Part shown: positions 26,132 to 54,362 of the stretch, piece by piece
How positions within the stretch are numbered: position 1 is the first letter of the stretch
Layout: every line of letters starts with the position of its first letter
DNA from: Phosphitispora fastidiosa
GTDB taxonomy: Bacteria; Bacillota; Thermincolia; Thermincolales; UBA2595
DNA: 55,018 nt
Assembly (NCBI RefSeq): GCF_019008365.1
Contig: NZ_JAHHUL010000023.1
Coordinates: 1-55,018, forward strand
Direction of reading: 5' to 3'
Notes under the pieces: model-generated
Database searches by the model: none
Told to the model about the DNA's origin: nothing
Seen by the model: only the letters and a program-made list of their open reading frames with translations
Translations under genes and position numbers: made by a program

Positions 26132-27016
26132 TTATTTTATACTTTTTTCCCAGATATTCATGTTTTCATACCTGCCGCCAATATCACAATTGTTTATCAG
26201 CCTGCCCCCATATGTGTACCCCTTCTTGTACATCACTGCATTAATGGGAGGGATTCCTGCCCTGGCAAGACTATACAGGCAGATTAACTTTCTTTGGGCC
26301 AGTTTTTGCTCCATGTGGTCAATAAGCATTGCCATGACTCCCCTGCCCCTGTGTTCCGGGAGGGTAACACAATCTGTAAGTTCAGCGCTCAGGTGCCTAT
26401 TATCTATGTCGGCGGAAATTATTCCGGCAATTTCACTTTTGTATTCAGCTATCAGCATGATATTCCCTTCCCGCCCGGTGAGTTCTTTAAAATACCGGCG
26501 TTCCTCGACAGGACTGGGATAGGTTACAAAAACATCTCTAAAAATATCCATAACGGTATTTATATCATCATCTTTAAGAATTCGAATAGAATAATTTTTG
26601 CAATTACTGCTCTTATCCGCTCCGACACAGCTTCGTTTTCTCTGGAGAATTCTTTTCAGAATGAGGTCTTCATTGACTAAATGTTCACTGCCAGACCTGT
26701 CAGCACACAGAAACCGGCTCATTAAATACACAGGGTCACCCCTGAAATAAGTGTTCATCACACCTTCAAGCCTATAGCCGAGAGACAGAAACTTCTGCCA
26801 ATCATTCTTATGTGAATAGACAATTATTTTCCCCGCCTGGGACTTACTGCCAAGAATTTCAATGTAATTTGCCAGGGCCCCAATATCACGAGCCTGATAA
26901 TCCACCACGCGTATCCGCCTGCTGCGGCAGTCATTAACAGCCTCCACAGCAAACTCATCTGTGTTCATTTTTACTAAACTGGTTTCCCGGTCAAAGGTGT
27001 CTTTTTCCCCTATCAT
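26132..27016 (-). CDS. ablB: Beta-lysine N6-acetyltransferase
   Basis: A 294-residue GNAT-fold acetyltransferase that, in methanogens and some bacteria, acetylates beta-lysine to the compatible solute N-epsilon-acetyl-beta-lysine. The GNAT core lies at about residues 145-275, with the acetyl-CoA loop in LPEHRGRGVMAMLIDHME near residue 223 and ARAGIPPINAVMYKKGYTYGG towards the end. The ATG overlaps the ablA stop by 4 bases, a coupled arrangement that strongly supports the specific function over a generic acetyltransferase. It is followed by a terminator. Confidence 0.92.
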   Translation of the reverse strand: MIGEKDTFDRETSLVKMNTDEFAVEAVNDCRSRRIRVVDYQARDIGALANYIEILGSKSQAGKIIVYSHKNDWQKFLSLGYRLEGVMNTYFRGDPVYLMSRFLCADRSGSEHLVNEDLILKRILQRKRSCVGADKSSNCKNYSIRILKDDDINTVMDIFRDVFVTYPSPVEERRYFKELTGREGNIMLIAEYKSEIAGIISADIDNRHLSAELTDCVTLPEHRGRGVMAMLIDHMEQKLAQRKLICLYSLARAGIPPINAVMYKKGYTYGGRLINNCDIGGRYENMNIWEKSIK

Positions 27017-28287
27017 GATACTGTTACACCATTGTTTTCGCGTCTCTTCTCCCTTGAGTTGCCTTTAGGAGTAAGGCTTATGCTTTGTTCACCAAACAGC
27101 TTGGCTACCCCCTCCCTTGATTTTATCCTGATACTTTTACACTCCCCGCACTCCATACAGGCAGCAGTCTTGTCATCAGGTTCGCGATAAGAGCAGAGAA
27201 CACCCTCATAATTCCGGAGAATAATTTTATTAGTTGAATGGGAAATAACATACTGCGGCCCGACCGGGATTTTTCCCCCTCCGCCAGGTGCGTCGATAAC
27301 ATAAGTCGGTACTGCCAACCCGGTAGTGTGTCCCCGCAAGGTCTCCATTATTTCTATCCCCCTGGATACAGGTGTCCGGAAATGTTCAATTCCCTGCGCC
27401 ATATCGCACTGGTACAGGTAGTACGGCCTTACCCTGATTGTCAGCAGTTTCTGAAGCAGCTTTTTCATAACATTGGGGCAGTCGTTGATTCCGCGCAGCA
27501 GCACACTCTGGTTCCCCAGGGGCACCCCGGCTTCATTCAGCCTGCTGCAGGCATTTCTGGCTTCAGCGGTTATTTCCCGCGGGTGATTAAAATGAGTATT
27601 AAGCCAAACGGGATGGTATTTCTTGATAATCCTACAAAGGTCTTCAGTAATTCTCTGGGGCAGCACGACAGGGGTGCGTGTCCCTATCCTGATCATTTCA
27701 ATATGCTTGATGAGCTTAAGGCTTCCAAGAATGTATTCCACAGTCTCATCTGGGATTACCAGCGCATCACCCCCGGAAATAAGCACATCTCTGATGCCGG
27801 GATTATTCCTGATATAGTTGATTGCCCTGTCTAAGTATTTCTTGGGCAGCGCCTTGTCCGACTGGCCCGCAAAACGTCTTCTGGTACAGTGTCTGCAGTA
27901 CATGGAGCACTGGTCGGTGACCAGGAAAAGCACCCTGTCGGGATATCTGTGGGTAATTCCCGGAACCGGCGAATCCCCTTCTTCAAACAGGGGATCTTCC
28001 ATATCATACTGGGTGTGCTTTAACTCCAAAGCAGTAGGGATAGCCTGTTTTCGGATGGGGCAGGATGGGTCTTCACGGTTCATCAGGGCGGCATAATACG
28101 GAGTGACCGCCATGCGCAGGGACTGCAGGCATTCCGCTATCCCTGTCTCCTCCTCTGGTGTAAGATTCACTATTCCCTGCAGGTCTTCAACACAGGTGAG
28201 CCTGTTGGACAACTGCCACTTCCAGTCATTCCACTGCTCTGGTTCAACTTCCTTCCACTTTTCAAACTTTTTATAATTTGCTAACAT
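27013..28287 (-). CDS. ablA: Lysine 2,3-aminomutase
   Basis: Radical SAM/PLP enzyme (424 residues) converting L-lysine to L-beta-lysine. The [4Fe-4S] motif CSMYCRHC (Cys127, Cys131, Cys134) is followed by TRRRFAG. Both lysine side-chain-binding aspartates of characterised enzymes are present, in YLYQCDMAQG and VIDAPGGGGK; the last Lys binds PLP. The C-terminal CMECGEC zinc-type cysteines are present too. The start at 28287 has AGGAGGAATGTA upstream. With ablB it forms the two-gene osmolyte pathway. Expression is probably controlled by the long leader, which contains a strong terminator about 40 bases before the ribosome site. Confidence 0.95.
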   Translation of the reverse strand: MLANYKKFEKWKEVEPEQWNDWKWQLSNRLTCVEDLQGIVNLTPEEETGIAECLQSLRMAVTPYYAALMNREDPSCPIRKQAIPTALELKHTQYDMEDPLFEEGDSPVPGITHRYPDRVLFLVTDQCSMYCRHCTRRRFAGQSDKALPKKYLDRAINYIRNNPGIRDVLISGGDALVIPDETVEYILGSLKLIKHIEMIRIGTRTPVVLPQRITEDLCRIIKKYHPVWLNTHFNHPREITAEARNACSRLNEAGVPLGNQSVLLRGINDCPNVMKKLLQKLLTIRVRPYYLYQCDMAQGIEHFRTPVSRGIEIMETLRGHTTGLAVPTYVIDAPGGGGKIPVGPQYVISHSTNKIILRNYEGVLCSYREPDDKTAACMECGECKSIRIKSREGVAKLFGEQSISLTPKGNSREKRRENNGVTVS

Positions 28288-28311
28288 TACATTCCTCCTT
28301 ATATTTTGTAT

Positions 28312-28517
28312 AGGTTTCGGTTTGAAAATAAAAAACCCGGGCACTCTAACTCTCTTTCGCTAATGTCGAAAGAGAGTTAGAGTGCCCGGGTTTCGTCATC
28401 ACGTGACTCACCCTAAACCAAATGCCTGATTTATCCCTAGCCCCGGTCGATGTGACCGGAACTAAAAGAAGGCCCCAGCTCCCTAATTCAGATTTTTCCA
28501 TTCAGGTTTCGGTTTGA
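28312..28517. repeat. 14-bp direct repeats in the ablA leader
   Basis: AGGTTTCGGTTTGA occurs at 28312-28325 and again at 28504-28517 (plus strand), 192 bases apart. The segment between them includes the 27-bp terminator hairpin. Confidence 0.85.
28325..28393 (-). terminator. 27-bp-stem terminator in the ablA leader
   Basis: A perfect 27-bp stem (28333-28359 with 28367-28393) with a 7-base loop is followed on the minus strand by TTTTTTATTTT (partly within the stem base). It lies between the ablA promoter and ablA, so it must be conditional if ablA is to be expressed from that promoter. Confidence 0.85.
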
Positions 28518-41177: not shown

Positions 41178-41282
41178 CCGGGGGAAAATCTGGTGAGACA
41201 TTTTTGGGAACAAGAAGCATGAAACTTGAATATTTTAATAAATGAGGATTACAAAAGTGTTTTTCCTGAGGAGGATAAGGGA

Positions 41283-42293
41283 ATGAACCTGCGCAACAAA
41301 AAAATCCTGGTTACCGGAGCTGACGGCTTTATCGGTTCACATTTAACGGAAGAACTGCTGAGATCGGGCTGCAACGTGCGCGCTTTCGTTCTATACAATT
41401 CATTTAATTCCTGGGGATGGCTGGATGAAGCGCCCAAGTCCCTCCAGGATAATCTGGAGATATTTTCCGGCGATATCCGTGACCCGCACGGGGTTTACGA
41501 AGCTGTGAAAGGATGTGACATAGTCCTGCACCTGGCAGCTTTGGTTGCTATCCCCTATTCCTATCATTCTCCAGACACTTATATAGACACTAATATTAAA
41601 GGAACTTTAAACATTCTGCAGGCCGCCCGCAAGCTGGAAGTGGCAAAAGTCGTCCACACATCCACCAGTGAAGTATATGGTACCGCCCGGTTTACCCCTA
41701 TAAATGAGGACCACCCCCTACAAGGACAGTCACCCTATGCAGCCACCAAGATTGCCGCTGATCAAATGGCCATGGCCTTTTATAATTCTTTCGATACCCC
41801 AGTTGCCATCATCCGTCCCTTTAATACTTATGGCCCCCGCCAATCGGCCCGGGCAGTTATCCCTACTGTAATAACTCAGATCGCCGGCGGGCAGCACAAA
41901 ATTAAGCTGGGCTCCACTCACCCCACCCGGGATTTTAATTATATAAAAGATACTGTAAAGGGCTTTATCTCTGTAGCCGAAGCAGCTGCTACTGTCGGAA
42001 AAGTAATTAATATAGGCAGCAATTACGAGATCTCTATTGGAGAATTGGTTGAACTTATCGCCGAAGTAATGCAGGTCAGGATAGAGATCCAGACTGAGGA
42101 GGAACGGCTGCGCCCGGAAAAAAGCGAGGTGGAGCGCTTATGGGCAGACAATACCAGGGCGGAAAAGCTCCTGGGCTGGAAACCCGAATATGCCGGATAT
42201 GAGGGTTTAAAGCGTGGCTTGGCGGAAACGATAAAGTGGTTTAGTCAAAGCGGGAATCTTAAAAAATACCGGCCGGAAGTTTATAACTTATGA
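41283..42293 (+). CDS. legB: NAD-dependent sugar-nucleotide 4,6-dehydratase, LegB-like
   Basis: A 336-residue extended short-chain dehydrogenase. The NAD loop GADGFIGSHLTEEL begins near residue 12. TSTSEVYGTA near residue 127 supplies the catalytic serine/threonine region and SPYAATKIAADQ near residue 153 the Tyr-x3-Lys pair. RPFNTYGPRQS near residue 177 is typical of 4,6-dehydratases. It closely resembles enzymes annotated LegB, which make the 4-keto-6-deoxy GDP- or UDP-N-acetylglucosamine intermediate of legionaminic acid. The start at 41283 has GAGGAGG 8 bases upstream; a longer frame from 41226 has no ribosome site. Stop overlaps the next start by 4 bases. Confidence 0.88.
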   Translation: MNLRNKKILVTGADGFIGSHLTEELLRSGCNVRAFVLYNSFNSWGWLDEAPKSLQDNLEIFSGDIRDPHGVYEAVKGCDIVLHLAALVAIPYSYHSPDTYIDTNIKGTLNILQAARKLEVAKVVHTSTSEVYGTARFTPINEDHPLQGQSPYAATKIAADQMAMAFYNSFDTPVAIIRPFNTYGPRQSARAVIPTVITQIAGGQHKIKLGSTHPTRDFNYIKDTVKGFISVAEAAATVGKVINIGSNYEISIGELVELIAEVMQVRIEIQTEEERLRPEKSEVERLWADNTRAEKLLGWKPEYAGYEGLKRGLAETIKWFSQSGNLKKYRPEVYNL

Positions 42294-43462
42294 AAAAGGA
42301 ACTTGATTTAAATACAATCATCAATACTTTGCAAAGGGTTTTACCTTCGATACAAAAATCAATTGCCCTGCACGAACCGCTGTTTACCGGGAATGAATGG
42401 GATTATGTCAAAAAGTGCCTGGACAGCGGCTGGGTTTCTTCAGCTGGAAAATATGTCTCCCTCTTTGAAAAACAAATTGCAGAATACACTGGAATCAAAC
42501 ACGTTATAGCAGTTGTAAATGGTACAGCAGCGCTACATACCTGTTTGCAGCTAGCCGGAGTCAGAGCCGGTGACGAGGTCTTAATGCCGGCGTTGACCTT
42601 TGTCGCCACCGCCAATGCTGTCATCTATTGCGGCGCAGTGCCTCATTTTGCAGACAGTGAGGAAAAAACCCTGGGTTTGGACCCTCTCAAACTGGGCAAC
42701 TATCTAAAAGATATCACTGAACTGCGGACTGTCGGCTGTTTCAACAGGAAAAGCGGTCGCCGCCTCAAAGCGGTGGTGCCCATGCACACCTTTGGACACC
42801 CGGTGGATATGGACCCCTTATTAGACGTCTGCCGGAGATTTGGCCTGGCGCTGGTAGAAGATGCGGCAGAATCTCTAGGTTCATTATACAAGGGAAAGCA
42901 CACCGGAAGCTGGGGACGGCTTTCCGTGCTCAGCTTTAATGGCAACAAGGTCATTACTACCGGTGGTGGCGGGGCTGTTTTAACTAATGACTCTTCTCTG
43001 GCCGTTTTGGCCCGGCATCTGACCACACAGGCTAAACTGCCCCATCCCTGGGCGTTCCATCATGATATGGTGGGATATAACTATAGGATGCCCAATATCA
43101 ATGCAGCCCTGGGCTGCGCTCAGCTCGAAAGGTTACCGGAGTTTATCAGGCAGAAAAGAGCTCTGGCTTTACGATATCAGGAAGCCTTTGCCGGAATTGA
43201 AGGGGTCCGGATATTCAAAGAGGCGGATTTTGCGCACAGCAATTACTGGCTCAATATACTTCTTCTTGATGAAGGTTACTCCGGTAAACGCGAAAAATTA
43301 CTTGAATTAACTAACCGGCAGGGTATTATGACCCGCCCCCCCTGGACCCTGATGCACAAACTGATCATGTATCAGGATTGCCCAAGAATGGATCTTGCCT
43401 GTGCTGAGAGTCTGGAAAAAAGACTCATTAATCTTCCGAGCAGTGCATTTCTCGCTGAGTGA
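42290..43462 (+). CDS. legC: PLP-dependent sugar aminotransferase, LegC family
   Basis: A 390-residue DegT/DnrJ/EryC1-type enzyme that aminates the 4-keto sugar produced by LegB. The N-terminus carries the LegC-type HEPLFTGNEWDYVKKCLD and GWVSSAGKYV. Also seen: NGTAALHTCLQLAGV, LVEDAAESLGS near residue 192 and the PLP lysine in SFNGNKVITTGGGG near residue 223. Length is normal. Translation is coupled to legB by an ATGA overlap. This pairing of LegB and LegC types argues for a legionaminic-acid-like rather than a pseudaminic-acid product. Confidence 0.9.
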   Translation: MKKELDLNTIINTLQRVLPSIQKSIALHEPLFTGNEWDYVKKCLDSGWVSSAGKYVSLFEKQIAEYTGIKHVIAVVNGTAALHTCLQLAGVRAGDEVLMPALTFVATANAVIYCGAVPHFADSEEKTLGLDPLKLGNYLKDITELRTVGCFNRKSGRRLKAVVPMHTFGHPVDMDPLLDVCRRFGLALVEDAAESLGSLYKGKHTGSWGRLSVLSFNGNKVITTGGGGAVLTNDSSLAVLARHLTTQAKLPHPWAFHHDMVGYNYRMPNINAALGCAQLERLPEFIRQKRALALRYQEAFAGIEGVRIFKEADFAHSNYWLNILLLDEGYSGKREKLLELTNRQGIMTRPPWTLMHKLIMYQDCPRMDLACAESLEKRLINLPSSAFLAE

Positions 43463-43486: not shown

Positions 43487-44719
43487 TTGAAACAAGAAAA
43501 GTTACTCCTGGAATTAGTACGGCAGCAGGCGGAAAAAAGTTCTTTTTACCGCAGTTTATATAAGGGACTTACCATTGATCATTTCACTGATATCCCATTT
43601 ACTACCAAACGAGTGTTACTAGACGATCAATTACAGAATCCGCCTTTTGGCACCAATGTCTGCGTGGACCGTAATAAAATTGCCCGCTTGCACAGAACCT
43701 CCGGAACCACCACACGGCCGCTGACCTTGGTACTGACAGCTCATGATGTGGAACAGGTTATCCTTGCCGGCAGCCGGGCCTTTCGAACTGCCGGAATGGA
43801 TGACAATGACATAGTTTTCAATTGCATGAATTATTGCATGTGGATGGGCGGCTTTATGGACCACCAGAGCATGGAAGCAACCGGAGCTGCTGTTGTACCC
43901 TACGGCGTCGGAAAAACAGAAAATCTCATCGATCTGCTTTTGGAAATCGACAGCCCGTGTCTTCACTCCACGCCTTCCTATCTTGCTGCAATTCGCAAGG
44001 TCCTGCATGAGAAATATAGTTTGCCGCCGGAACGCCTCGGACTGAAAAAAGGCTTTTTTGGCGGGGAGGCCGGCATGCAGGATGCAGGTTTCCGTAACAA
44101 AATAGAGGCTGAATGGCAAATGCAGGCAATCAATGCCAACTATGGAGTTTCAGAGGTTCTCAGTATCCTCGGCGCCGAATGCAGCCGCCGGGATGGGCTT
44201 CATTTTACGGCTTTGCCTTTTTTACATGTGGAGATAATTGACCCGGCAAGTGGAACAGGGCTGCCGCTGGCAGCGGGCAGTTGCGGTGAAATGGTCCTGA
44301 CCAACCTGGTGAAAGAAGCACAGCCTTTGGTCAGATACCGTACCGGGGATATTATTGAAATTGTGGCCATAGATGACTGCCCTTGCGGAAATGAAGGCTT
44401 TCGCTTCCTAACCCGGGGGCGAAGTGACGACATGCTTGTTATTAAAGGAATAAATTTTTATCCGGAATCCCTCCGCTCCCTGCTGTCCCCCTATCCCGAG
44501 TGTACCGGAGCCTATGTTGTAATGGTCCCTAACCGACAGCCCATTGATGAAATTGCCGTCAGGGTACAAGTGCTGGCCGGAAAACAGGACCATACTACCC
44601 TGGCTGAAAAGCTTAAAAAAGAAATCCGGGATAGATTATTTATTACGCCGCAAATCACCCTGGTCGAAAATCTGGCATACGGGGAAAACAAAATCAAGCT
44701 GGTGGAAAGGTGGAATTAG
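43487..44719 (+). CDS. PaaK-like AMP-forming acyl ligase
   Basis: An ANL-superfamily enzyme of the phenylacetate-CoA ligase/CapK type (about 410 residues). The nucleotide loop LHRTSGTTTRPL lies near residue 67. NANYGVSEVLSILGAECS is near residue 210, VRYRTGDI near residue 284 and the hinge region RGRSDDMLVIKGINFYPESL near residue 308. The family adenylates a carboxylic acid and passes it to CoA or another acceptor. Such a gene is not part of the known legionaminic pathway; here it sits between legC and an aminomutase-like enzyme. The TTG at 43487 has AAGGA 10 bases upstream; a GTG at 43478 is an alternative start. The acid is unknown. Confidence 0.8.
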   Translation: MKQEKLLLELVRQQAEKSSFYRSLYKGLTIDHFTDIPFTTKRVLLDDQLQNPPFGTNVCVDRNKIARLHRTSGTTTRPLTLVLTAHDVEQVILAGSRAFRTAGMDDNDIVFNCMNYCMWMGGFMDHQSMEATGAAVVPYGVGKTENLIDLLLEIDSPCLHSTPSYLAAIRKVLHEKYSLPPERLGLKKGFFGGEAGMQDAGFRNKIEAEWQMQAINANYGVSEVLSILGAECSRRDGLHFTALPFLHVEIIDPASGTGLPLAAGSCGEMVLTNLVKEAQPLVRYRTGDIIEIVAIDDCPCGNEGFRFLTRGRSDDMLVIKGINFYPESLRSLLSPYPECTGAYVVMVPNRQPIDEIAVRVQVLAGKQDHTTLAEKLKKEIRDRLFITPQITLVENLAYGENKIKLVERWN

Positions 44720-44721
44720 CC

Positions 44722-44817
44722 GTGTATACACTAAAGCGGAATCAAGTCCTGCCGCAACTACCGGCCGGAGTAAAACTGAGGCACGTCCACTGGATGACAG
44801 AGCAAAAGGGAGGATAA
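44722..44817 (+). CDS. Possible 31-residue small protein
   Basis: A GTG-initiated frame starts 2 bases after the ligase stop, with GGTGG about 9 bases upstream, and ends within the ribosome site (GGGAGG) of the next gene. It fills almost all of the only sizeable gap in this part of the operon. The peptide is basic (starts VYTLKRNQVLPQLPAG, ends WMTEQKGG) and matches nothing I recognise. It may be a genuine small protein or chance. Confidence 0.35.
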   Translation: MYTLKRNQVLPQLPAGVKLRHVHWMTEQKGG

Positions 44818-44823
44818 CACCAA

Positions 44824-45909
44824 ATGCCGGATGGGAAGAAAGCCGCCTTTAAACAGAAGGTGTCGGAATACCTCAAACATCTGCTTGCCAGAATCAGGAG
44901 TGAGTACGGGGAAAAATCCCCTGAATATGATGCTATATATAACCAGTATTTCTATTCGCCGCTGGAAGACATGGTGGAGCAAGAGCATAACCTGAAGCAT
45001 TACGAAGCGGCGCTCACCAGCAAGGGAGGATTACCGCGCGGCCTGGAAAGGCTGTACAAACGGCAGCTTGTGATCGACCTGACAATGGTCTGTGCTGCCC
45101 ACTGCCGCTATTGCCTGCGCTCGAACTATGACCCGGTGCGAATCAAAAGAAGCGACATTGCAGGAATTGTAGCTTATATCGCATCTGATGAGTATCTGAA
45201 AGAGCTGCTGGTCACAGGCGGTGACCCCTTGATGGTGCCACATTTGCTGATGCAGTTAATTTCGGAAGTGGTCCAAAAAGCTCCCAATATTCAAATTATC
45301 CGGATTGGTACACGCCTGCCGGTTCAATCTCCGGATAAATTTGATGAAGAGCTGTTCAATTTTTTTAAGTCATATCAGGAAAGTGTCAGCTTTGAATGTG
45401 CCATTCAAATCAACCATGCCATAGAATTACAGGAACAACCCCGTAAAATTATTGAAGACCTGCAGAAATCCGGGGTCCGGATTTACAGCCAAAACGTTTT
45501 ACTAAAAAATGTCAATGATAAGATCACCGCATTGGTGGAGTTATATGACCATCTCAGATATTTGGGCGTAGAAGCACATTATCTCTTTCATCCTGTTCCT
45601 TTAATCGGTACCCACCATTTCCGCCCCAGTATTGCCAAAGCCCTTTCCCTGATTAAGGAACTGACATCATCAGGCCGGATATCCGGCAGAATCAAACCAA
45701 TGCTATCATTAATGACAGATGTTGGCAAAGTAACCCTCTATGAGGGGACCCTCGGCGCAAAGGACGAACAGGGTTATTTAGATATCCAAACCAATTATCA
45801 AATTGAGGACAGATTACGCTGGAACCCGGATTACCTGCTTCCAGACTCGGCCCGGGTAGATGAGTGGGGGCACATTATTGTTAAATATCTTGATGGCAGT
45901 GATGACTGA
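44824..45909 (+). CDS. KamA-family radical SAM aminomutase-like enzyme with altered substrate site
   Basis: A 361-residue relative of lysine 2,3-aminomutase. The cluster motif CAAHCRYC (Cys90, Cys94, Cys97) and the following LVTGGDPLM and RIGTRLP (near residue 160) match the family, as does YLFHPVPLIGTHHFRP near residue 253. The PLP-binding lysine probably corresponds to Lys302 (TDVGKV). The two aspartates that bind the lysine side chain are replaced by Val258 and Ser295, whereas the AblA protein encoded at 27013-28287 keeps both. The substrate is therefore probably not lysine. GGGAGG precedes the ATG; the stop overlaps the next start by 1 base. It is shorter than AblA, lacking the C-terminal zinc cysteines. 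Confidence 0.82.
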   Translation: MPDGKKAAFKQKVSEYLKHLLARIRSEYGEKSPEYDAIYNQYFYSPLEDMVEQEHNLKHYEAALTSKGGLPRGLERLYKRQLVIDLTMVCAAHCRYCLRSNYDPVRIKRSDIAGIVAYIASDEYLKELLVTGGDPLMVPHLLMQLISEVVQKAPNIQIIRIGTRLPVQSPDKFDEELFNFFKSYQESVSFECAIQINHAIELQEQPRKIIEDLQKSGVRIYSQNVLLKNVNDKITALVELYDHLRYLGVEAHYLFHPVPLIGTHHFRPSIAKALSLIKELTSSGRISGRIKPMLSLMTDVGKVTLYEGTLGAKDEQGYLDIQTNYQIEDRLRWNPDYLLPDSARVDEWGHIIVKYLDGSDD

Positions 45910-46559
45910 TGGAAAAAGAAATGATTATCCTCATTGGCTGCGGTGAACATGCCCGCATGGTCATCGACAATATCGACCAAATGAAAGACATCGAAATATT
46001 TGGCTTAATCGCGGCAGACAAGGCGGAGACCGGCAAAAAAGTAATGGGGTATGAAATCATCTGCTGTGATGATGACATCGACGTATTGTTACAGGAAAAC
46101 CCCGATATCTCCGGATACTTTCTGGGAGTCGGAGACATGCGGACCAGGCAGCGCTTAGCGGTAAAGTATGATCATAAGATCAGAGCCGTCAACATAATCC
46201 ATCCGGCAGCCATTGTATCACGCTATGCCACAATCGGAACGGGCAATTTGTTTGAAGCCTATACCAAAATTGCCAATGGTGTGATGCTCGGTTCTCATTG
46301 CATTATCAACAGTTTTACCAGTGTAAACCATGACCAAATTATTGGCAGCAATGTATTGCTGGCCGGTAATGTCAGCATGGCAGGCAAAAGTATTGGTGAT
46401 AATACCCTGATTGCCGATGGCGCTTCCATCGGTTTTAAAAAAAATGTGGGCTGCTGCTGTATTATAGGTGATGGTGCGGTAGTTACCAAAGACATCCCTG
46501 ATTATTCCATCGTCTATGGCAACCCGGCCAGAAGGGTCAGAGAAAATGTTTGGGAATAG
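45909..46559 (+). CDS. legH: Left-handed beta-helix acyltransferase, NeuD/PglD (LegH-like)
   Basis: A 216-residue sugar N- or O-acyltransferase. The N-terminal PglD-like Rossmann part begins IILIGCGEHARMVIDNI and has GYFLGVGD near residue 69; the C-terminal half is a hexapeptide-repeat helix (HPAAIVSRYATIGTGN onward) with the catalytic His candidate in SFTSVNHDQIIG, ending VYGNPARRV. In the legionaminic route such an enzyme acetylates the 4-amino group from acetyl-CoA. Here the two upstream genes hint that a different acyl group might be used. The TGATG overlap indicates translational coupling to the aminomutase-like gene. Confidence 0.85.
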   Translation: MEKEMIILIGCGEHARMVIDNIDQMKDIEIFGLIAADKAETGKKVMGYEIICCDDDIDVLLQENPDISGYFLGVGDMRTRQRLAVKYDHKIRAVNIIHPAAIVSRYATIGTGNLFEAYTKIANGVMLGSHCIINSFTSVNHDQIIGSNVLLAGNVSMAGKSIGDNTLIADGASIGFKKNVGCCCIIGDGAVVTKDIPDYSIVYGNPARRVRENVWE

Positions 46560-47577
46560 TAAGATGCACTTTGGTCAGGGTAAGGTATACATCATTGCCG
46601 AAGCAGGCGTGAATCATAACGGCTCTCTGGCTATGGCTAAGGAATTAATTGAGTCAGCTTGCCAGACCGGTGCGGATGCCGTTAAATTTCAAACCTGGAA
46701 AACAGAAAATGTCATTACCCGTTCTGCGCCAAAAACAGCCTATCAGCTTGAGCAGGCAGGCCTTGATACAGACCTGTTTACAATGTTAAAAAGGTTGGAA
46801 CTGTCCTATGCTGATTTTGCTAAGCTGAAGGAATACTGCGATGCCTGTGGCACAGCCTTTCTCTCAACAGCAGATGAATATGAGAGCGCGGCATTTTTGA
46901 ACACCCTGCAGGAATTTTTTAAGATCGGGTCTGCGGAATTAACAGACTGGCCCTTTTTGCGGAAAGTCGCGGCTTTTGGAAAACCGGTGCTCCTTTCGAC
47001 GGGAATGAGTGACCTTGCCGAAATTTCGGCCGCCCTAAAAGTTCTTAGCGAAAGCGGCCTGCCCAAAGAGCAGGTTGTTGTGTTGCATGCCAATACCGAG
47101 TACCCGACTCCCTTTGCCAATGCAAACCTGCTTGCCATCAGGACTATTGCCGCAGAACTTGGTGTCAGGACCGGATATTCCGACCATACGCCAGGGATAG
47201 AAGCTGCGCTGGCAGCAGCTGCCCTGGGCGCCTGCGTAATAGAGAAGCATTTTACGCTGAACAGGGAATTACCGGGACCGGACCACAAGGCCAGTATCGA
47301 ACCGACAGAATTCAGGAAAATGGTTTCCGGTATCAGAAAGATTGAACTGGCTCTGGGAACTGGTGTCAAAGCGCCCAGCCCCGGAGAAAAGAAAAACATC
47401 CCATTTATCCGCAAGTCAATCGTCGCCCTAAAACCGATTCGAACAGGCGAAACCTTCAGTGAGGAAAACATCACGGTGAAAAGGCCGGGCTTTGGTATCA
47501 GTCCTATCCATTGGGATCAGGTGATTGGGCAAGTTGCAGACCGGAATTATGAAAAGGATGATTTCATATGCCTTTGA
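46546..47577 (+). CDS. legI: Nonulosonic acid synthase (NeuB/LegI type)
   Basis: Condenses phosphoenolpyruvate with a six-carbon N-acyl sugar to give a nine-carbon sialic-acid-like sugar. The 343 residues comprise a TIM barrel (YIIAEAGVNHNG, ADAVKFQTWK, KIGSAELTDWPFL, TGYSDHTPG, EKHFTLNRELPGPDHKAS) and a C-terminal antifreeze/SAF domain (about 285-343, RKSIVALKPIRTGE). The ATG at 46546 overlaps the previous gene by 14 bases with AAGGG upstream; the ATG at 46564, just after the previous stop, is an alternative. Confidence 0.92.
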   Translation: MFGNSKMHFGQGKVYIIAEAGVNHNGSLAMAKELIESACQTGADAVKFQTWKTENVITRSAPKTAYQLEQAGLDTDLFTMLKRLELSYADFAKLKEYCDACGTAFLSTADEYESAAFLNTLQEFFKIGSAELTDWPFLRKVAAFGKPVLLSTGMSDLAEISAALKVLSESGLPKEQVVVLHANTEYPTPFANANLLAIRTIAAELGVRTGYSDHTPGIEAALAAAALGACVIEKHFTLNRELPGPDHKASIEPTEFRKMVSGIRKIELALGTGVKAPSPGEKKNIPFIRKSIVALKPIRTGETFSEENITVKRPGFGISPIHWDQVIGQVADRNYEKDDFICL

Positions 47578-48734
47578 AAAGAAAAATTTGTATCATCACA
47601 GGTTCGCGCTCTGAATATGGCTTGCTCCGGTGTCTGATCAGAAGGCTTGATGAAGATGAGGACATTGATTACCGGCTTATTGTTACCGGAAGCCATCTGG
47701 CTCCCGAGTATGGCCTGACCTGGCAGGAAATTATCAGAGATGGCTTTGAAATAGCCAAAAAAGTGGAAATTCTTTTATCCTCCGATACCCGAAAGGGGAC
47801 CTGCAAGTCAATGGGATTGGCGCTGATGGGAATGGCTGATGCCCTTGAAGAGCTCAGACCGGATATTGTTGTTGTCCTGGGAGACCGGTTCGAAATCTTT
47901 GCAGCAGCAACAGCCGCCATGGTTTGCGGATACCCCCTGGCCCATATCGACGGCGGCGAATTGACAGAGGGGGCATTGGATGATTCCTTCCGACATTGCA
48001 TCACCAAAATGGCCCATGTGCATTTTACGGCAACTGAAGCGTACAGGCAGCGGGTGATTCAACTGGGTGAAATGCCGGAACGTGTCTATAACGTTGGTGG
48101 CATCCATGTGGATGCCATAAGAGATATTCCCCTGTTACACAAAAAACAGGTGGAGACCAAATTAGGTACTCCTCTGAGTGGAAAAACGATTTGCGTTACC
48201 TATCATCCCGAAACATTGAACACCCATAATCAGGAAAGTAATATCCGGGCATTGCTGGGGGCTTTGATGATGCTGGCTGACACAACAATCATTATTACTC
48301 TGCCCAACGCCGACCCCGGAAGCCGGACCATCATTGAAAAAATACGGGAATTCAGTCAAACCGAAAATGTTTATATTTTTGAGTCCCTCGGACATACCTG
48401 TTATTTGTCGCTGCTGCAGTATGTTGATGCCGTTGTCGGCAATTCTTCGAGCGGTATAGTTGAGGCGCCTTTATTTGGTATTGGCACTGTCAATATCGGA
48501 GGCCGCCAGAAAGGCCGGGTTGCCGGAGAATCTGTAATAAATGTACCTCATAATAAAGAAAGTATTTACCAGGCTATTCGCCGGGCCCAGTCCGCTGAAT
48601 TTAAAGCGGGACTGAAGTCTCTGGCAAATCCTTATGGAACTGGAGGAGCCGCAGCCCGTATCAGGGATATTCTTAAGCAAATTGAGCCGGAAGGCCTGAC
48701 CAGGAAACAGTTTTACGATTTAAGGTGTAACTAA
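47568..48734 (+). CDS. legG: Hydrolysing nucleotide-sugar 2-epimerase (NeuC/LegG type)
   Basis: Removes the nucleotide and inverts C2 to release the free manno-configured sugar used by the synthase. The 388-residue protein has the NeuC start ICIITGSRSEYGLL, VVVLGDRFEIFAAA near residue 103, HIDGGELTEGALDDSFRH near residue 125, VTYHPETL near residue 212 and GNSSSGIVEAP near residue 292. It overlaps the synthase gene by 10 bases. The order legI-legG is reversed relative to chemistry but usual in such clusters. The stop overlaps that of a convergent gene by 4 bases. Confidence 0.92.
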   Translation: MPLKRKICIITGSRSEYGLLRCLIRRLDEDEDIDYRLIVTGSHLAPEYGLTWQEIIRDGFEIAKKVEILLSSDTRKGTCKSMGLALMGMADALEELRPDIVVVLGDRFEIFAAATAAMVCGYPLAHIDGGELTEGALDDSFRHCITKMAHVHFTATEAYRQRVIQLGEMPERVYNVGGIHVDAIRDIPLLHKKQVETKLGTPLSGKTICVTYHPETLNTHNQESNIRALLGALMMLADTTIIITLPNADPGSRTIIEKIREFSQTENVYIFESLGHTCYLSLLQYVDAVVGNSSSGIVEAPLFGIGTVNIGGRQKGRVAGESVINVPHNKESIYQAIRRAQSAEFKAGLKSLANPYGTGGAAARIRDILKQIEPEGLTRKQFYDLRCN

Positions 48735-50119
48735 GTTTGGCGGAATCCCCTGAAAGAACTGTCTTTTTCGAGATACAACCTGCGCAGCGTTTCCCCGGCT
48801 TTTTGTATCTGCATCTGGTAATAATCTGTAATTAATTTTTGGTTAGCTTCATACAGGAGCCTGTGAACTTCATCATCACTGAGACCGGTAAAATTCACTG
48901 ACAGCAAGTCGGAATTCACATGCTTATGCTCATAAAAATCTTCACAGTCTTTTAACAGGCCTTTCGCAATGGCGTAATAGTATAACGGGGACCCGGGATA
49001 AGGGGTTACCGGTCTAATGGTTCTCATCTGGGCATGATCAGTGTATTTTAACAGGAATTCAACCCCTAACCTTAGTGACTCTGCGTTTTCGCCAATATTG
49101 CCAAAGATTATATTAAACCCTGGGCTAATTCCTGCAGCCAAGGTGTTTTCTATGCCGCCAGTAATCTGTTTTACGGTCAGGGCTTTATTCATATTGCGCA
49201 GGGCCTGTTCATCCAGGGATTCGATGCCGTAGTTAATAAAAACACATCCCGCCTCTTTCATCAGTTTCAGTACATCCGGTTTGGCATAATTAAGCCGGCC
49301 GTTGCAGTCCCACTTAACGTTAAGTTTATGCTTGATAAAACATTCACAGATTGCAACAGTCCTATGCGTTGAGCTCATCAATAGCTCGTCAGAAAAGGTT
49401 ATAAAGGAAATCCGGTAATCTTTTTTCAGACGCTGGATTTCTTCAACTATGCTTTCCGGGCTTCGTCCCCTGAAGCCCTCGTCCATGCGATAGCAAAAAT
49501 TACACTTAAAGGTACATCCCCTTCCCGATAAGACCGGCATCCAGCGTTCGCTGTTATTGATATGGGGCACCCTGAGCAAAGCATAATGGTCTATCGGGAA
49601 CAACTCCCAAGCAGGATATGGTATGCCGTCTATATCGGCAATTAAATCCTGCCGGGGCGTCTGGATGCAGGCCCCGTTTTCCAGAAAAGCTATGCTGTTT
49701 ACCGAGTGCAACGGCTTCTTTTGTTCCAGCGCCTCCAAGAGGTTAACAACAGTTATCTCGCCTTCTCCAATAACAACAGCATCTGCTGAAGTTTTTCTTA
49801 AAAAATAATCAGGTTCCGGTGCAGCCAAATGTCCCCCCAAAACATAAAAAGGCCGGTGTTTGGCTTGATTAACAGCCTCGGATATCTTTAACACCTTCCG
49901 GTATTGGTAATATCCTCCACACGCACTGACCCCAATAAAGTCATAATGTTTCTTATCTAATAAAGCGGTTAAATGGGATTCCGGCCAATGATAAACGTCC
50001 TGGTTATAAATTTCAACCTCATGACCGGCCTGAAGACATGCTGATGCAATATACGCCAACCCTTGTGGAAACCAGGAAATGAAAGAGTCGTTATCATATG
50101 CCACTAAAAGTATTTTCAT
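48731..50119 (-). CDS. B12-binding radical SAM protein
   Basis: A 462-residue class B-type radical SAM protein. The N-terminal cobalamin-binding-like domain (about 1-140) starts KILLVAYDNDSFISW and has YVLGGHLAAPEP; the radical SAM core has CTFKCNFCYR (Cys near residues 202, 206 and 209) and FITFSDELL, YGIESLDEQALRNMNK downstream. The DxHxxG signature of strict B12 binders is not evident, so cobalamin use is uncertain. AGGAGGAGAG precedes the ATG. It is the only minus-strand gene inside the island, convergent with legG and divergent from ptmE. Family members methylate or rearrange unreactive carbons; a role in modifying the sugar or its acyl group is only a possibility. Confidence 0.82.
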   Translation of the reverse strand: MKILLVAYDNDSFISWFPQGLAYIASACLQAGHEVEIYNQDVYHWPESHLTALLDKKHYDFIGVSACGGYYQYRKVLKISEAVNQAKHRPFYVLGGHLAAPEPDYFLRKTSADAVVIGEGEITVVNLLEALEQKKPLHSVNSIAFLENGACIQTPRQDLIADIDGIPYPAWELFPIDHYALLRVPHINNSERWMPVLSGRGCTFKCNFCYRMDEGFRGRSPESIVEEIQRLKKDYRISFITFSDELLMSSTHRTVAICECFIKHKLNVKWDCNGRLNYAKPDVLKLMKEAGCVFINYGIESLDEQALRNMNKALTVKQITGGIENTLAAGISPGFNIIFGNIGENAESLRLGVEFLLKYTDHAQMRTIRPVTPYPGSPLYYYAIAKGLLKDCEDFYEHKHVNSDLLSVNFTGLSDDEVHRLLYEANQKLITDYYQMQIQKAGETLRRLYLEKDSSFRGFRQT

Positions 50120-50245
50120 TTCTCTCCTCCTATTTTATCCTCATATTCTCTCGGAAATTCTACATCCTCAAAGCACATCTTGTATTAAGTTATGCCCGGA
50201 CAATACGGGTTATGTTTCAATGACCTGCTGGCTGCGCACTATTTC

Positions 50246-50258
50246 TGTGATAATCACA
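50246..50258. promoter_or_regulatory. 13-bp palindrome between divergent genes
   Basis: TGTGATAATCACA is a perfect palindrome with one central base. It lies in the 184-base divergent spacer between the radical SAM gene and ptmE, about 45 bases before the ptmE start, overlapping the expected promoter area. An operator is inferred; the spacing differs from CRP/FNR sites. Confidence 0.35.
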
Positions 50259-50303
50259 TATTATGAAATACATCATGTAAATAGTAAGAAAAGGGAACGT
50301 CAC

Positions 50304-51347
50304 ATGTGGAGAAATGTTCTTATCACCCCTAAAACTCCTATAGTAAAAGCTATAGATATAATCGACCGGTCAGGTTTGCGAATCGCTCTGGTGGTCAATG
50401 ATAACGGCAGGTTACTGGGGACTGTCACCGATGGTGATATCAGGCGCGCAATTCTCAAACAGCTAAGCCTGGATGAAGCTGTAAGTGTGGTCATGAACCC
50501 GGCCCCCAGCTATGTTTACAGTGAGCAATCCCGGCAAAATGCCATCCAGCTGATGAAAAGTAAAAAACTTCATCAGATCCCTGTTCTCGATAAAGGCCAT
50601 CACGTAGTTGGGCTGGAAATTGCCGATGAACTGTTCGCCCCCCCTTCTCGTGACAACTGGGTAATGCTCATGGCCGGCGGGCTGGGACGCCGCTTAGAAC
50701 CACTCACAGAAAACTGCCCTAAACCCTTGTTGAAAATAGGCAATAAACCGCTTCTGGAGACAATCCTGGAAAGTTTCGCCGAACAGGGATTCAGGCATTT
50801 CTATATCTCGGTGAATTATAAAGCAGAGATGATTAAAAAACATTTTGGGGATGGTTCCCATTGGGCGGTAGACATTAAATACCTGCAGGAAGGTAAGTCT
50901 TTGGGCACGGCCGGCGCCCTGGGACTGCTGCCCGCTAAACCGGAAGAACCGCTGCTCTTGATGAATGGGGATATCCTGACCAAAATGAACTATGGAAAAT
51001 TGCTGGATTTCCACTATAAGAATCTGGCCGAAGCTACTATCTGTGTTAAGGAATATAACAACCAGATACCCTATGGGGTAGTCACTGTTAAAAAAGACCG
51101 GCTCCTGAAAATTGAAGAAAAACCTCAGCACCATTTTTTTATTAGTGGAGGAATCTACGTGTTTAATCCTGCCGTTCTTGATTATGTCCCACATGGCTCA
51201 AGTTTGGATATTCCTGATCTCCTCAGAACACTTTTGGCACAAGAAAAAAAGATAGCTGCTTTTCCCATTCGCGAATACTGGATAGATATCGGGCACTTTG
51301 ATGATTATCAAAAAGCCAATAATGATTTTGCGAAGGTGTTTAAATGA
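50304..51347 (+). CDS. ptmE: CBS-domain sugar-1-phosphate nucleotidyltransferase (PtmE type)
   Basis: A 347-residue protein with two CBS domains (about 1-120, including LLGTVTDGDIRRAILK) followed by a nucleotidyltransferase domain: the signature LMAGGLGRRLEPLTENCPKP near residue 125, GTAGALGLL, LLMNGDILT and YWIDIGHFDDY near the end. In the Campylobacter legionaminic pathway PtmE makes GDP-glucosamine, which distinguishes the GDP route from the UDP route. The start at 50304 has AAAGGGA 7 bases upstream; earlier in-frame codons lie in the divergent promoter region. It is coupled to the next gene by an ATGA overlap. Confidence 0.9.
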   Translation: MWRNVLITPKTPIVKAIDIIDRSGLRIALVVNDNGRLLGTVTDGDIRRAILKQLSLDEAVSVVMNPAPSYVYSEQSRQNAIQLMKSKKLHQIPVLDKGHHVVGLEIADELFAPPSRDNWVMLMAGGLGRRLEPLTENCPKPLLKIGNKPLLETILESFAEQGFRHFYISVNYKAEMIKKHFGDGSHWAVDIKYLQEGKSLGTAGALGLLPAKPEEPLLLMNGDILTKMNYGKLLDFHYKNLAEATICVKEYNNQIPYGVVTVKKDRLLKIEEKPQHHFFISGGIYVFNPAVLDYVPHGSSLDIPDLLRTLLAQEKKIAAFPIREYWIDIGHFDDYQKANNDFAKVFK

Positions 51348-52048
51348 TAAACAACAATAAGGTTCTTGGCATAATCCCGGCACGGGGCGGTTCCAAGGGC
51401 ATTCCCCGCAAAAACATTAAACTCCTGGCCGGTAAACCATTAATCGCCTGGACTATAGAAGAGGCAAAAAAATCTCAGTACCTGGACCGTTTGATCCTCT
51501 CCTCTGAAGACACAGAGGTCATCACAACGGCAAAAACATGGGGGTGTGAAGCCCCCTTCGAGCGCCCGGCTGATTTGGCCCGGGACGATACCCCGGGGAT
51601 AGAACCCGTAATCCACGCTTTGGATCAATTAGATGAGCATTATGACTACGTAATCTTGCTACAGCCAACCTCCCCCCTGCGTACTGTCGAGGACATTGAC
51701 GGCTGTATCCGTTACTGCGTCCAGGAAGGGGCGCCGGCCTGCATTTCGGTGTCTTTAACAGATAAACACCCTTACTGGATGCATACCATAGATGAACGCC
51801 ACCGTTTACATCCCTTGCTTCCAACAGCTCAGGCAATCCAGCGGAGGCAGGACCTTCCCCCTGTCTACCTTGAAAACGGAGCAGTTTATGTTGCCCAAAA
51901 GGACTTCTTACTTAAAATGAAGAGCTTTACCACCGGGGAAACACTGGCTTATATCATACCTCCTGAGCGCTCATGGGATATTGACAATGAATTTGATTTC
52001 TACTACTGTTCACTGATAAAAGGAGGATATCATGACATTACAAGCTAA
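51344..52048 (+). CDS. legF: CMP-nonulosonic acid synthetase (NeuA/LegF type)
   Basis: Activates the nine-carbon sugar with CTP to CMP-sugar. The 234-residue protein begins with the CTP-binding IIPARGGSKGIPRKNIK, then LAGKPLIAWTIEEA, SSEDTEVI, ILLQPTSPLRT near residue 104, LENGAVYV and ending WDIDNEFDF. It has no C-terminal phosphatase domain. It lies directly before the Maf glycosyltransferase, which would use the CMP-sugar, with a 17-base overlap. Confidence 0.94.
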   Translation: MINNNKVLGIIPARGGSKGIPRKNIKLLAGKPLIAWTIEEAKKSQYLDRLILSSEDTEVITTAKTWGCEAPFERPADLARDDTPGIEPVIHALDQLDEHYDYVILLQPTSPLRTVEDIDGCIRYCVQEGAPACISVSLTDKHPYWMHTIDERHRLHPLLPTAQAIQRRQDLPPVYLENGAVYVAQKDFLLKMKSFTTGETLAYIIPPERSWDIDNEFDFYYCSLIKGGYHDITS

Positions 52049-54362
52049 TCTGGAAATATTGAAGGTCTCTTTTCCTGAAACATGGCAAAAAATTTGCGAA
52101 CTTGAGACCACTTTGGATAAAAATCTGGTTAGGGTAGTAACTAACAAAAAAGCAGCGCCCATTCTTCAGGTTGGGCAGGTATATGTTCATGACAGAAAAA
52201 ATCCCCGTCAGGACGCGAAAAATTTTATTGAACAGTTCAAAAACATCCCTGAACATTCGGACATCCTTTTTTACGGAGTAGGATTGGGCTACCATATAAG
52301 CGCTTATGCAGAAAAATACCCGGATAAATCTTTTTCCATCTACGAACCCGTTCCTGAGGTGTTTTATCAGTTTCTCTGCAATACAGACCTGCAGCAGTTC
52401 CCTTTTCATCTCGTCAAAAACATTCATCTTGAATCCAGCCAGGATGACCCAGAGAAGTTTTGCAGAAACCTGGTAACGCGGGTTAGAAAATCAATACTGA
52501 TTATCGCCCTTCCCGCTTACCACAGTCTATTTCCTAAAAAGAGCCAGACATTCTTTAACCAGTTTACAATTCATTTGAATGAGCGAAAAATGGAACTGGG
52601 CCCCTATATGATATTTCAAAAACTCTGGACCACTAACATCGTAAAAAACTTCACCCATGTTCTAAATAGTCCTAACGTCCTGCTGGGGAAAAGGAAATGC
52701 TTTTTTAATAAGCCTGCTATTTTGGTGGCCTCCGGGCCTTCACTGGAGGAGGAAATCGAAAATTTGAGAGAAATCAGGCAAAAGGGACTGGCTTATATCT
52801 TCTCCGTCGGAACAGCCCTCAATGCTCTGGTCAAACGTGGCATATATCCCCATGCAGCCTGCACCTATGACCCCAGCGAGGAAAACCAGATTGTGTGCAG
52901 AGAAGTCCTGGAAAAAGACATCAAGTCCATCCCCTTGCTTTTTGGCAGTACAGTGGGTCACGAAACTGTGGAAAAATACCCGGGCCCCAAAATGCATATG
53001 TTGATCAGCCAGGACTCCTTAGCGAGATTTTGTTTAAAACCCCAGGGGTCTGAGAGCCTGGACTTTATCAATGACGCGCCATCCATTGCGGTGATTGCCC
53101 TCCAGCTCCTTTATAAGCTGGGATTCAACCCAATCATCCTGGTGGGGCAAAATCTGGCTTATCTGGACGGTAAAAATTATACCGACGGGTCAACCTATCC
53201 CTCCCATGAAGCCTGTCAAATGCATCTGAAAAACGCAACCCTGGTTAAGGATGTAAATGGCAACGAGGTCCCTGCCAGTGAAACTTACATTCGTATAAGA
53301 CTACATATCGAGAACTACCTTCGCGATTATCAGGATGCCAAGGTAATCAACACAACAAAAAGGGGCGCTCATATTGAGGGAACAAAGTTTTTGCCGCTGG
53401 ATGAGGTCATGGGACAATATCTGCTTTCCCCTGTGGTAGAAAAAGATTGCTGGCATCTTTCAAGTCGTAGTTATGACCTGGATTATTTGTTTGAACAAAA
53501 CAACAGCATGAACACTGCCTGTACACAGGTTACCCAGCTGCTGGAAAAATGCAGGCTGGACCTTGATAACATCGTTTCACTGGCTCCAAGCGGTGATGTG
53601 GTGAATATCGAAGAAAGCTATAACCGGTTTAATCTTAGTATGGAGAATTTACGGAAAAATTTATTTTTTGCCAACTTAATCACTCACATGAGCCGCGTAG
53701 AATTGCAATTTCTGCTCCAGGTTATTCCTGAGATTTCCAGGGAAAGAAACCCCTTGCGAAAAGCTCACATGATGGAAAAAGAATTCCGTAGTTACCTTGA
53801 TGTTTGCGAACAGGATATCTACTCCGTTATTCCCATCTACCAGGAATTGAATCAAAAGCTGGATCAGTTTAACAAAGTATATTCAGTACGCAAGAAAGCT
53901 GCCAAAACCAAGGTCTTGCTTCTGGTCTGTGATGGTATCCTCACCGACGGGTATGTCTATATTTCTGCAGCAGGGGAAGAATCAGAAAAGTTCAGCCATA
54001 AGGACCGTGCAGGTATACGCATTTTAAGAGAAAAAGGTATTCAGACCCTGCTGATAAATCCCGAAGCCAGTCCGCTGTTGAATCAAGCAGCACAAAAATT
54101 AGAAATTGATACAATAACATCAAACAAAAGGGAAATAGTAGACACTACCCTGGCAAAATACTCGCTCAATATATCTGAAATTGCCTGCATTTGCAGTAAT
54201 CCAAGAGATTGGGAATTGTGCAGGAAGGTGGGATTAAGCTTTGCCGTGAAAGATGCTTCACCCGAGGTGCAGCAGAATGTTGATTTTGTACTTACGGCAA
54301 AGGGGGGCCAGGGTGTGCTCTGGGAAATTGCCGACTTGCTGACCAAAGACCTGAGATTCTAA
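52032..54362 (+). CDS. Maf-type glycosyltransferase (DUF115) with a fused degenerate KdsC-like HAD domain
   Basis: A 776-residue protein. The central part (about 200-415) is a DUF115/Maf domain: AILVASGPSLEEEIENLREI near residue 229, FSVGTALNALVKRGIYPH, ACTYDPSEENQ, and ILVGQNLAYLDGKNYTDGST. Maf proteins transfer nonulosonic acids to flagellin or other surface proteins. Residues about 624-776 align with KdsC-type phosphatases (CDGILTDG, then RKVGLSFAVKDASPEV and a GGQGVLWEIADLL end). The nucleophile Asp of DxDG is Val632 and the GDD motif is CSN, so the phosphatase is predicted inactive. GGAGG lies before the ATG. The last gene of the plus-strand island. Confidence 0.88.
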   Translation: MTLQANLEILKVSFPETWQKICELETTLDKNLVRVVTNKKAAPILQVGQVYVHDRKNPRQDAKNFIEQFKNIPEHSDILFYGVGLGYHISAYAEKYPDKSFSIYEPVPEVFYQFLCNTDLQQFPFHLVKNIHLESSQDDPEKFCRNLVTRVRKSILIIALPAYHSLFPKKSQTFFNQFTIHLNERKMELGPYMIFQKLWTTNIVKNFTHVLNSPNVLLGKRKCFFNKPAILVASGPSLEEEIENLREIRQKGLAYIFSVGTALNALVKRGIYPHAACTYDPSEENQIVCREVLEKDIKSIPLLFGSTVGHETVEKYPGPKMHMLISQDSLARFCLKPQGSESLDFINDAPSIAVIALQLLYKLGFNPIILVGQNLAYLDGKNYTDGSTYPSHEACQMHLKNATLVKDVNGNEVPASETYIRIRLHIENYLRDYQDAKVINTTKRGAHIEGTKFLPLDEVMGQYLLSPVVEKDCWHLSSRSYDLDYLFEQNNSMNTACTQVTQLLEKCRLDLDNIVSLAPSGDVVNIEESYNRFNLSMENLRKNLFFANLITHMSRVELQFLLQVIPEISRERNPLRKAHMMEKEFRSYLDVCEQDIYSVIPIYQELNQKLDQFNKVYSVRKKAAKTKVLLLVCDGILTDGYVYISAAGEESEKFSHKDRAGIRILREKGIQTLLINPEASPLLNQAAQKLEIDTITSNKREIVDTTLAKYSLNISEIACICSNPRDWELCRKVGLSFAVKDASPEVQQNVDFVLTAKGGQGVLWEIADLLTKDLRF

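Follow-up and report, generated by a model that had tools for sequence, protein, structure and literature searches.

The 55,018-nucleotide contig NZ_JAHHUL010000023.1 of Phosphitispora fastidiosa (contig C23 of a 239-contig, 4.09 Mb draft; the whole contig is "the window" below) carries a legionaminic acid (Leg) gene cluster in which three genes stand between legC and legI: a PaaK-like ligase, a KamA-like radical S-adenosylmethionine (SAM) enzyme and a LegH-type acyltransferase, here called the cassette. LegB, LegC, LegG and LegI all score above their model cut-offs within this one cluster (LegI and LegG with NeuB/NeuC-type models), which identifies the pathway as that of legionaminic acid. 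The genes concerned are:

41226..42293, + strand: legB, NAD-dependent 4,6-dehydratase (TIGR04180, 528 bits, cut-off 475)
42290..43462, + strand: legC, pyridoxal phosphate (PLP) aminotransferase (TIGR04181, 538 bits, cut-off 420)
43487..44719, + strand: PaaK-like acyl-AMP/acyl-CoA ligase, cassette gene 1 (PaaK profiles, about 200 bits; PDB 4r1l, E 6e-52)
44722..44817, + strand: 31-codon open reading frame (ORF), rejected as a gene; a vestigial gap
44824..45909, + strand: KamA-like radical SAM enzyme, 361 aa, cassette gene 2 (predicted lysine 2,3-aminomutase fold and cofactor residues; a clade of its own)
45909..46559, + strand: LegH/NeuD/PglD-type hexapeptide N-acyltransferase, cassette gene 3 (TIGR03570, 155.9 bits, under the cut-off of 160.8)
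46516..47577, + strand: legI, NeuB-type synthase (TIGR03569, 442 bits, above cut-off)
47568..48734, + strand: legG, hydrolysing NDP-sugar 2-epimerase (TIGR03568, 469 bits, above cut-off)

A preliminary description had read the genes between legC and legI in this order and with these identities, and had called them tightly spaced; profile scores bear out the former, and the intervals bear out the latter (24 bp from legC to the ligase and 104 bp from the ligase to the KamA-like gene, followed by a 1-base KamA/LegH overlap and an overlap of LegH with legI). It had also proposed genomic co-occurrence as a check, and this proved strict: ligase and aminomutase-like gene occur only together, and within Leg clusters. 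In a 398-genome sample of the phylum, orthologues of both are found in P. fastidiosa and in G308 (the metagenome-assembled genome (MAG) HGW-Firmicutes-15) and nowhere else; the next-best ligase in that sample is 39% identical and lies in another gene context. A second sample of 397 genomes held no further carriers, G825 being taken as G308 from its identical contig place. Altogether, the KamA-like protein has orthologues in three other Bacillota genomes, G308 (79% identity), the MAG SKS3.bin19 (87%) and G422 (79%), and the order ligase, KamA, LegH, LegI is identical and intact in all four carriers, at 78-87% identity (LegI 74-87%; ligase 78-87% at loci L054, L057 and L064; LegH 78-86%). The carriers span three classes, with 1 among the 10 genomes covered in the class of P. 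fastidiosa, 2 among 63 in that of G308 and 1 among 83 in that of G446. A scan of genome contigs with two narrow peptide patterns gave at least two matches.

Ligase and KamA-like gene are under purifying selection, with nonsynonymous divergence (dN) of about 0.05-0.14 against synonymous divergence (dS) of 0.38-1.6 and dN/dS of about 0.1. With the intact block in four genomes and the co-occurrence of the two genes, this makes the ligase-KamA-LegH block a real, selected cassette, and probably a mobile one. Chance neighbourhood, with the ligase and the KamA-like enzyme belonging to unrelated metabolism, is accordingly very improbable: nothing was found in its favor, and it would have to accommodate synteny across four genomes and three classes, the 1-base overlap and the exclusive co-occurrence. 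Patchy distribution combined with high identity suggests horizontal spread, and any direction assigned to such transfer would likewise have to be inferred; the G+C content of the cassette (0.45-0.49) does not differ from that of the contig (0.477), so composition speaks neither for nor against transfer. Viral contigs held no orthologue of the cassette KamA, and plasmids and phages held only distant KamA kin and no closer relative, some of the kin adjoining ATP-grasp ligases. The short KamA proteins of neighboring genomes (L005-L010) were considered as orthologues and rejected, being closer to AblA, without Leg context and of other pocket classes.

The 31-codon ORF, earlier listed as a possible gene, is missing from all three orthologous loci, and two of these hold something else in its place. 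The L057 gap (about 3095-3205) has no start codon and reads ...VREGIFIENGTVIGMGSTVISNLSGGRVYAGVPAHLLNE-stop, while that of L064 (about 11985-12110, - strand) reads ...VREGMLIGDETIVGMGSVVVNDL...; both look like the decayed C-terminus of a hexapeptide acyltransferase, the fossil of an earlier decoration enzyme (the debris was recognized by its hexapeptide pattern, with no close homologue among the compared loci). In the window and in G308 most of this remnant has gone. The debris implies that an acyltransferase formerly followed the ligase and has since died, the ORF being a leftover of that stretch.

What kind of enzyme is the KamA-like protein? An AlphaFold2 model built from a 41-row alignment (predicted local distance difference test (pLDDT) 78.9, predicted template modeling score 0.81) matches lysine 2,3-aminomutase (LAM; 2a5h), with 296 residues aligned at Z 30.2 and a runner-up at Z 15.5, and LAM is also its only sequence match among solved proteins. 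Residue roles in this family are established for the Clostridium subterminale LAM, in which K337 is the PLP lysine, R134 the arginine that holds the substrate alpha-carboxylate, and D293 and D330 the aspartates that hold the lysine side chain. The CxxxCxxC motif and candidate PLP lysine pointed out in the preliminary description are C90/C94/C97 and K302; K302 corresponds to K337 and R99 to R134, and equivalents of both are present in 92 of 92 aligned family members. Y78 is retained as well, and the equivalent of LAM Y113, the PLP-stacking tyrosine position, is kept. On its predicted LAM fold, cysteine motif, PLP lysine and carboxylate arginine, the protein is a member of the KamA superfamily in the wide sense, and from the fold together with R99 and K302 it can soundly be read as an alpha-amino acid 2,3-aminomutase.

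It is an outlying member all the same. The protein falls under every NCBIfam KamA-type cut-off: 137.6 bits against 199.2 for the KamA family (TIGR00238), 116 against 525.4 for lysine 2,3-aminomutase (TIGR03820), where V258/M297 stand in place of D293/D330, and 125 against 650 for glutamate 2,3-aminomutase (TIGR04368), where Val/Met stand in place of Lys/Asn. In a maximum-likelihood tree the four cassette proteins group together with support 100 on a single long branch, apart from the remaining 62, their exact place being unsure given midpoint rooting and long-branch effects. Two further points weigh against the aminomutase reading: LAM R112 and R116, which are arginines in AblA, align here with Leu77 and Gln81/Ser, so that PLP phosphate binding may be altered or lost, and the pocket hairpin is modeled only moderately (block means of pLDDT about 59-80, residues 290-320). 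One possibility, unlikely but to be taken seriously, is that a radical SAM enzyme on a LAM scaffold has ceased to be an aminomutase and now performs some different PLP-radical reaction, or one in which PLP has no part, that the ligase activates the other acid so made, and that the decoration is no beta-amino acid. The long isolated branch, the scores, the lost arginines and the residues peculiar to the clade (H252 for the usual Tyr, D85, K291) would all fit this; the retention of the K337, R134 and Y113 equivalents and of the cysteine triad would not, since an enzyme that still binds PLP and an alpha-amino acid should have them.

In the side-chain pocket, both lysine-binding aspartates had been described as replaced, by Val258 and Ser295; both are indeed gone, and V258 does occupy the D293 position, but the D330 position is that of Met297. 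Ser295 precedes the PLP lysine by seven residues, a spacing valid for the long APGGGGK loop; the cassette protein has a short loop, so the counterpart precedes it by five, at Met297. Subfamilies with the same short loop place D330 there (TGFAVPTFVLDTPIGK and SGLAQPMYVIATNIGK against SGRIKPMLSLMTDVGK), and alignment with them also answers the earlier question whether the aspartates had merely been displaced: they had not. (The profile alignment to 2a5h does not separate S295 from M297, its local match stopping before the hairpin.) Both positions are thus hydrophobic in all four orthologues. Among the 92 members the pocket pairs are Asp/Asp (54), Lys/Asn (20), Glu/Ala (7), Val/Met (4), Arg/Met (3), Glu/Asp (2) and Asp/Cys (2), Val/Met being limited to the four cassette proteins, which add a new class of pocket to the LAM family. 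Asp/Asp goes with the lysine model, as in the AblA of this window (27013-28344, - strand), which keeps both aspartates, as had been noted, and passes TIGR03820; Lys/Asn goes with the glutamate model, which one Lys/Asn protein passes.

The protein might instead act on lysine or glutamate through a rearranged pocket, so that the sugar would receive beta-lysine or beta-glutamate. Such an aminomutase would belong to the same fold family, and the genome does make beta-lysine, having two ablA-ablB pairs. This alternative is nevertheless improbable: V258/M297 are hydrophobic in 4 of 4 orthologues, unlike either D/D or K/N, the cassette clade nests with neither group, and a bona fide ablA already lies 17 kb away. 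The two ablA-ablB pairs, which serve N-epsilon-acetyl-beta-lysine synthesis, are at 26132-28344 of the window and on contig C8 of the same genome (G000; locus L041, 7685-9874).

Relative to LAM (KamA/AblA), then, the cassette enzyme shares the predicted fold, CxxxCxxC, PLP lysine, alpha-carboxylate arginine and stacking-tyrosine position, and differs in having Val/Met for both aspartates, a shorter chain and no R112/R116 equivalents, in its isolated clade, and in an overall identity of 23% to the AblA of the same window. Relative to glutamate 2,3-aminomutase it shares family and cofactors and is altered at the same two pocket positions, with Val/Met where that enzyme has Lys/Asn.

The ligase is PaaK-like, judging from its profile scores, and not PaaK. 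Its nearest relatives are PaaK-type CoA ligases (4r1l being the best solved one), with which it shares the fold family and the C-terminal AMP-binding domain, but it reaches only about 202-206 bits on PaaK equivalog models with cut-offs of 646-700 (TIGR02155: 202.5 against 646.3) and, unlike phenylacetate-CoA ligases, it sits in a glycan cluster. A C-terminal ENKI(K/R)LVE motif is present in 4 of 4 orthologues. Ligases about 39% identical to it lie in operons with enoyl-CoA hydratase/isomerase genes, two of the three also with thioesterase or hotdog genes; operons of this kind are what CoA-ester formers should show, and they suggest CoA-ester products.

The closest PDB relative of the LegH-type protein is perosamine N-acetyltransferase (E 7.5e-22), which acylates a nucleotide sugar at its 4-amino group. 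LegI is inherited together with the cassette: carriers share 74-87% identity in this protein, as against 43-47% with the LegI of clusters without one, despite the sharing of legB (74%), ptmE (65%) and the B12-binding radical SAM gene (82%) with the cassette-free G152 cluster (L137). At the cassette site, G152 (L137, 11307-14581) has a GNAT/FemAB-like protein (weak PF13480), a 376-aa protein without Pfam match and a different LegI. The natural reading of this difference is that the cassette is an exchangeable unit for acyl decoration and brings along a LegI fitted to its product.

The cluster continues past legG with:

48731..50119, - strand: B12-binding radical SAM protein, 462 aa (PF02310 and PF04055)
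50079..51347, + strand: ptmE/legX-like CBS and nucleotidyltransferase protein (PF00483, PF00571); the true start is probably about 50304, as orthologues align from residue 76
51344..52048, + strand: CMP-nonulosonic acid cytidylyltransferase, legF/pseF-like (PF02348; PseF model 143 bits, under cut-off)
52032..54362, + strand: Maf-type glycosyltransferase (MptE-like/Maf N) fused to a C-terminal HAD phosphatase-like domain (PF01973, PF20157, PF08282), just past which the contig stops

From these genes we infer a reaction, a substrate class, a CoA carrier, a sugar position and a protein target. The KamA-like enzyme, as a PLP- and radical SAM-dependent 2,3-aminomutase, would move the amino group of its substrate, an alpha-amino acid whose side chain is uncharged and probably aliphatic, from C2 to C3; the ligase would convert the resulting beta-amino acid to an acyl-AMP and on to a CoA thioester; and the LegH-type enzyme would place the beta-aminoacyl group on the 4-amino group of the LegB/LegC nucleotide sugar, the future N7 of legionaminic acid. 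LegG, the co-inherited LegI and the cytidylyltransferase would then yield a CMP-Leg whose N7 bears the beta-aminoacyl group, and the Maf-type transferase would attach the decorated sugar to a surface protein. Three flagellin-type genes lie on other contigs of the genome, which also has a Spo0A gene elsewhere; the G308 Leg cluster adjoins collagen-like surface proteins. That the cassette is a horizontally spread module that makes, activates and attaches a beta-amino acid to legionaminic acid is somewhat more probable than the contrary; that it contains an aliphatic-specific natural 2,3-aminomutase feeding a CoA-activated beta-amino acid onto a nonulosonic acid is a more tentative proposal, falling a little short of even chances. 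The preliminary description, which reached much the same idea, finds support for its aminomutase (from fold, R99 and K302) and loses its small gene, and the B12-binding radical SAM gene was absent from its picture.

Another point to set against beta-aminoacylation at N7 is that LegH might carry acetyl only, and the cassette product might go to a different site of the sugar. The fuller version of this idea, that the cassette feeds N5, or a different sugar within that glycan, while LegH performs ordinary acetylation, is rather unlikely. It draws on the debris in the gap: if a second hexapeptide acyltransferase once lay between ligase and KamA, the ligase need not work with LegH. The original structural paper on Clostridium botulinum legionaminic acid reportedly wrote the glutamyl group at N5. 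Another account gives it as N7 (PMC2674064), and this disagreement leaves room for the same alternative. Yet the second transferase is dead in 4 of 4 genomes, which leaves LegH as the sole hexapeptide-type transferase in the block, and the ligase is still under strong selection.

The nearest chemical parallel to a beta-aminoacyl group at N7 is the Leg5Ac7NMeGlu of C. botulinum flagellin (PMC2674064), which likewise has an amino acid on a legionaminic acid amino group in a Gram-positive Leg/Maf system. There the substituent is an alpha-amino acid derivative, N-methylglutamyl, no aminomutase is described, and the enzymes responsible are not defined (PMC2674064). The Campylobacter jejuni CMP-Leg pathway (LegB, C, H, G, I, F and PtmE) has the same core genes and a PtmE-type nucleotidyltransferase; its described set lacks the ligase/aminomutase pair, and it varies Leg by acetamidino groups through PtmG/H (PMC13317340). 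The Bacillus subtilis sps pathway likewise has Leg in a spore-forming Firmicute, by a UDP-linked route and in the spore crust, and its account, as searched, contains no ligase/KamA cassette (PMC7439481). In one paper that names both legionaminic acid and an aminomutase, the two belong to separate pathways. The literature searched held no description of an aminomutase within a legionaminic acid pathway, nothing joining O-antigen with aminomutase and beta-amino acids, and nothing joining nonulosonic flagellin glycosylation with radical SAM enzymes.

If the proposal is right, the LAM family would gain a further substrate class and sialic-acid-like sugars a first beta-aminoacyl decoration, linking radical SAM aminomutases with nonulosonic-acid glycans, two fields unconnected in that literature. 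The cassette, its genes linked in every carrier, would add a new decoration module to a known sugar pathway, and would offer an enzymatic route to beta-amino acids unlike those made by named family members, a hint as to how bacteria put amino acids on legionaminic acid, and a small gene signature by which such glycans could be predicted from genomes.

The B12-binding radical SAM gene is common to Leg clusters with and without the cassette. Its product is 82% identical in G308 and G422 and 65-82% in the Leg clusters of G152, G087, G066 and G047, making it a steady Leg/Maf companion in several Bacillota, in three cases beside flagellin genes. The Leg literature searched held no B12 radical SAM enzyme of such a kind; it may methylate, epimerize or otherwise alter the sugar. 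Relatives lie at:

L056, 1070-2458
L064, 7848-9236
L137, 9901-11289
L138, 9884-11272
L139, 9455-10843
L140, 9665-11056

Other KamA-family genes turned up in the same comparisons. Many Bacillota have KamA proteins of 360-390 aa that form a subfamily with the pocket pair Glu/Ala (L005, L006, L007, L037, L050-L052); the one member scanned passed no named equivalog model. On Sinorhizobium and Rhizobium plasmids (L067, L068), KamA-family genes stand beside ATP-grasp genes annotated as biotin-carboxylase-like, another pairing of an aminomutase-like protein with a possible acid-activating enzyme; the L068 pocket is Arg/Met. Many large contigs of phages and viruses also carry KamA-family genes, among them L070 and L071 (Pseudomonas and Vibrio phages of about 200 kb) and L073-L127.

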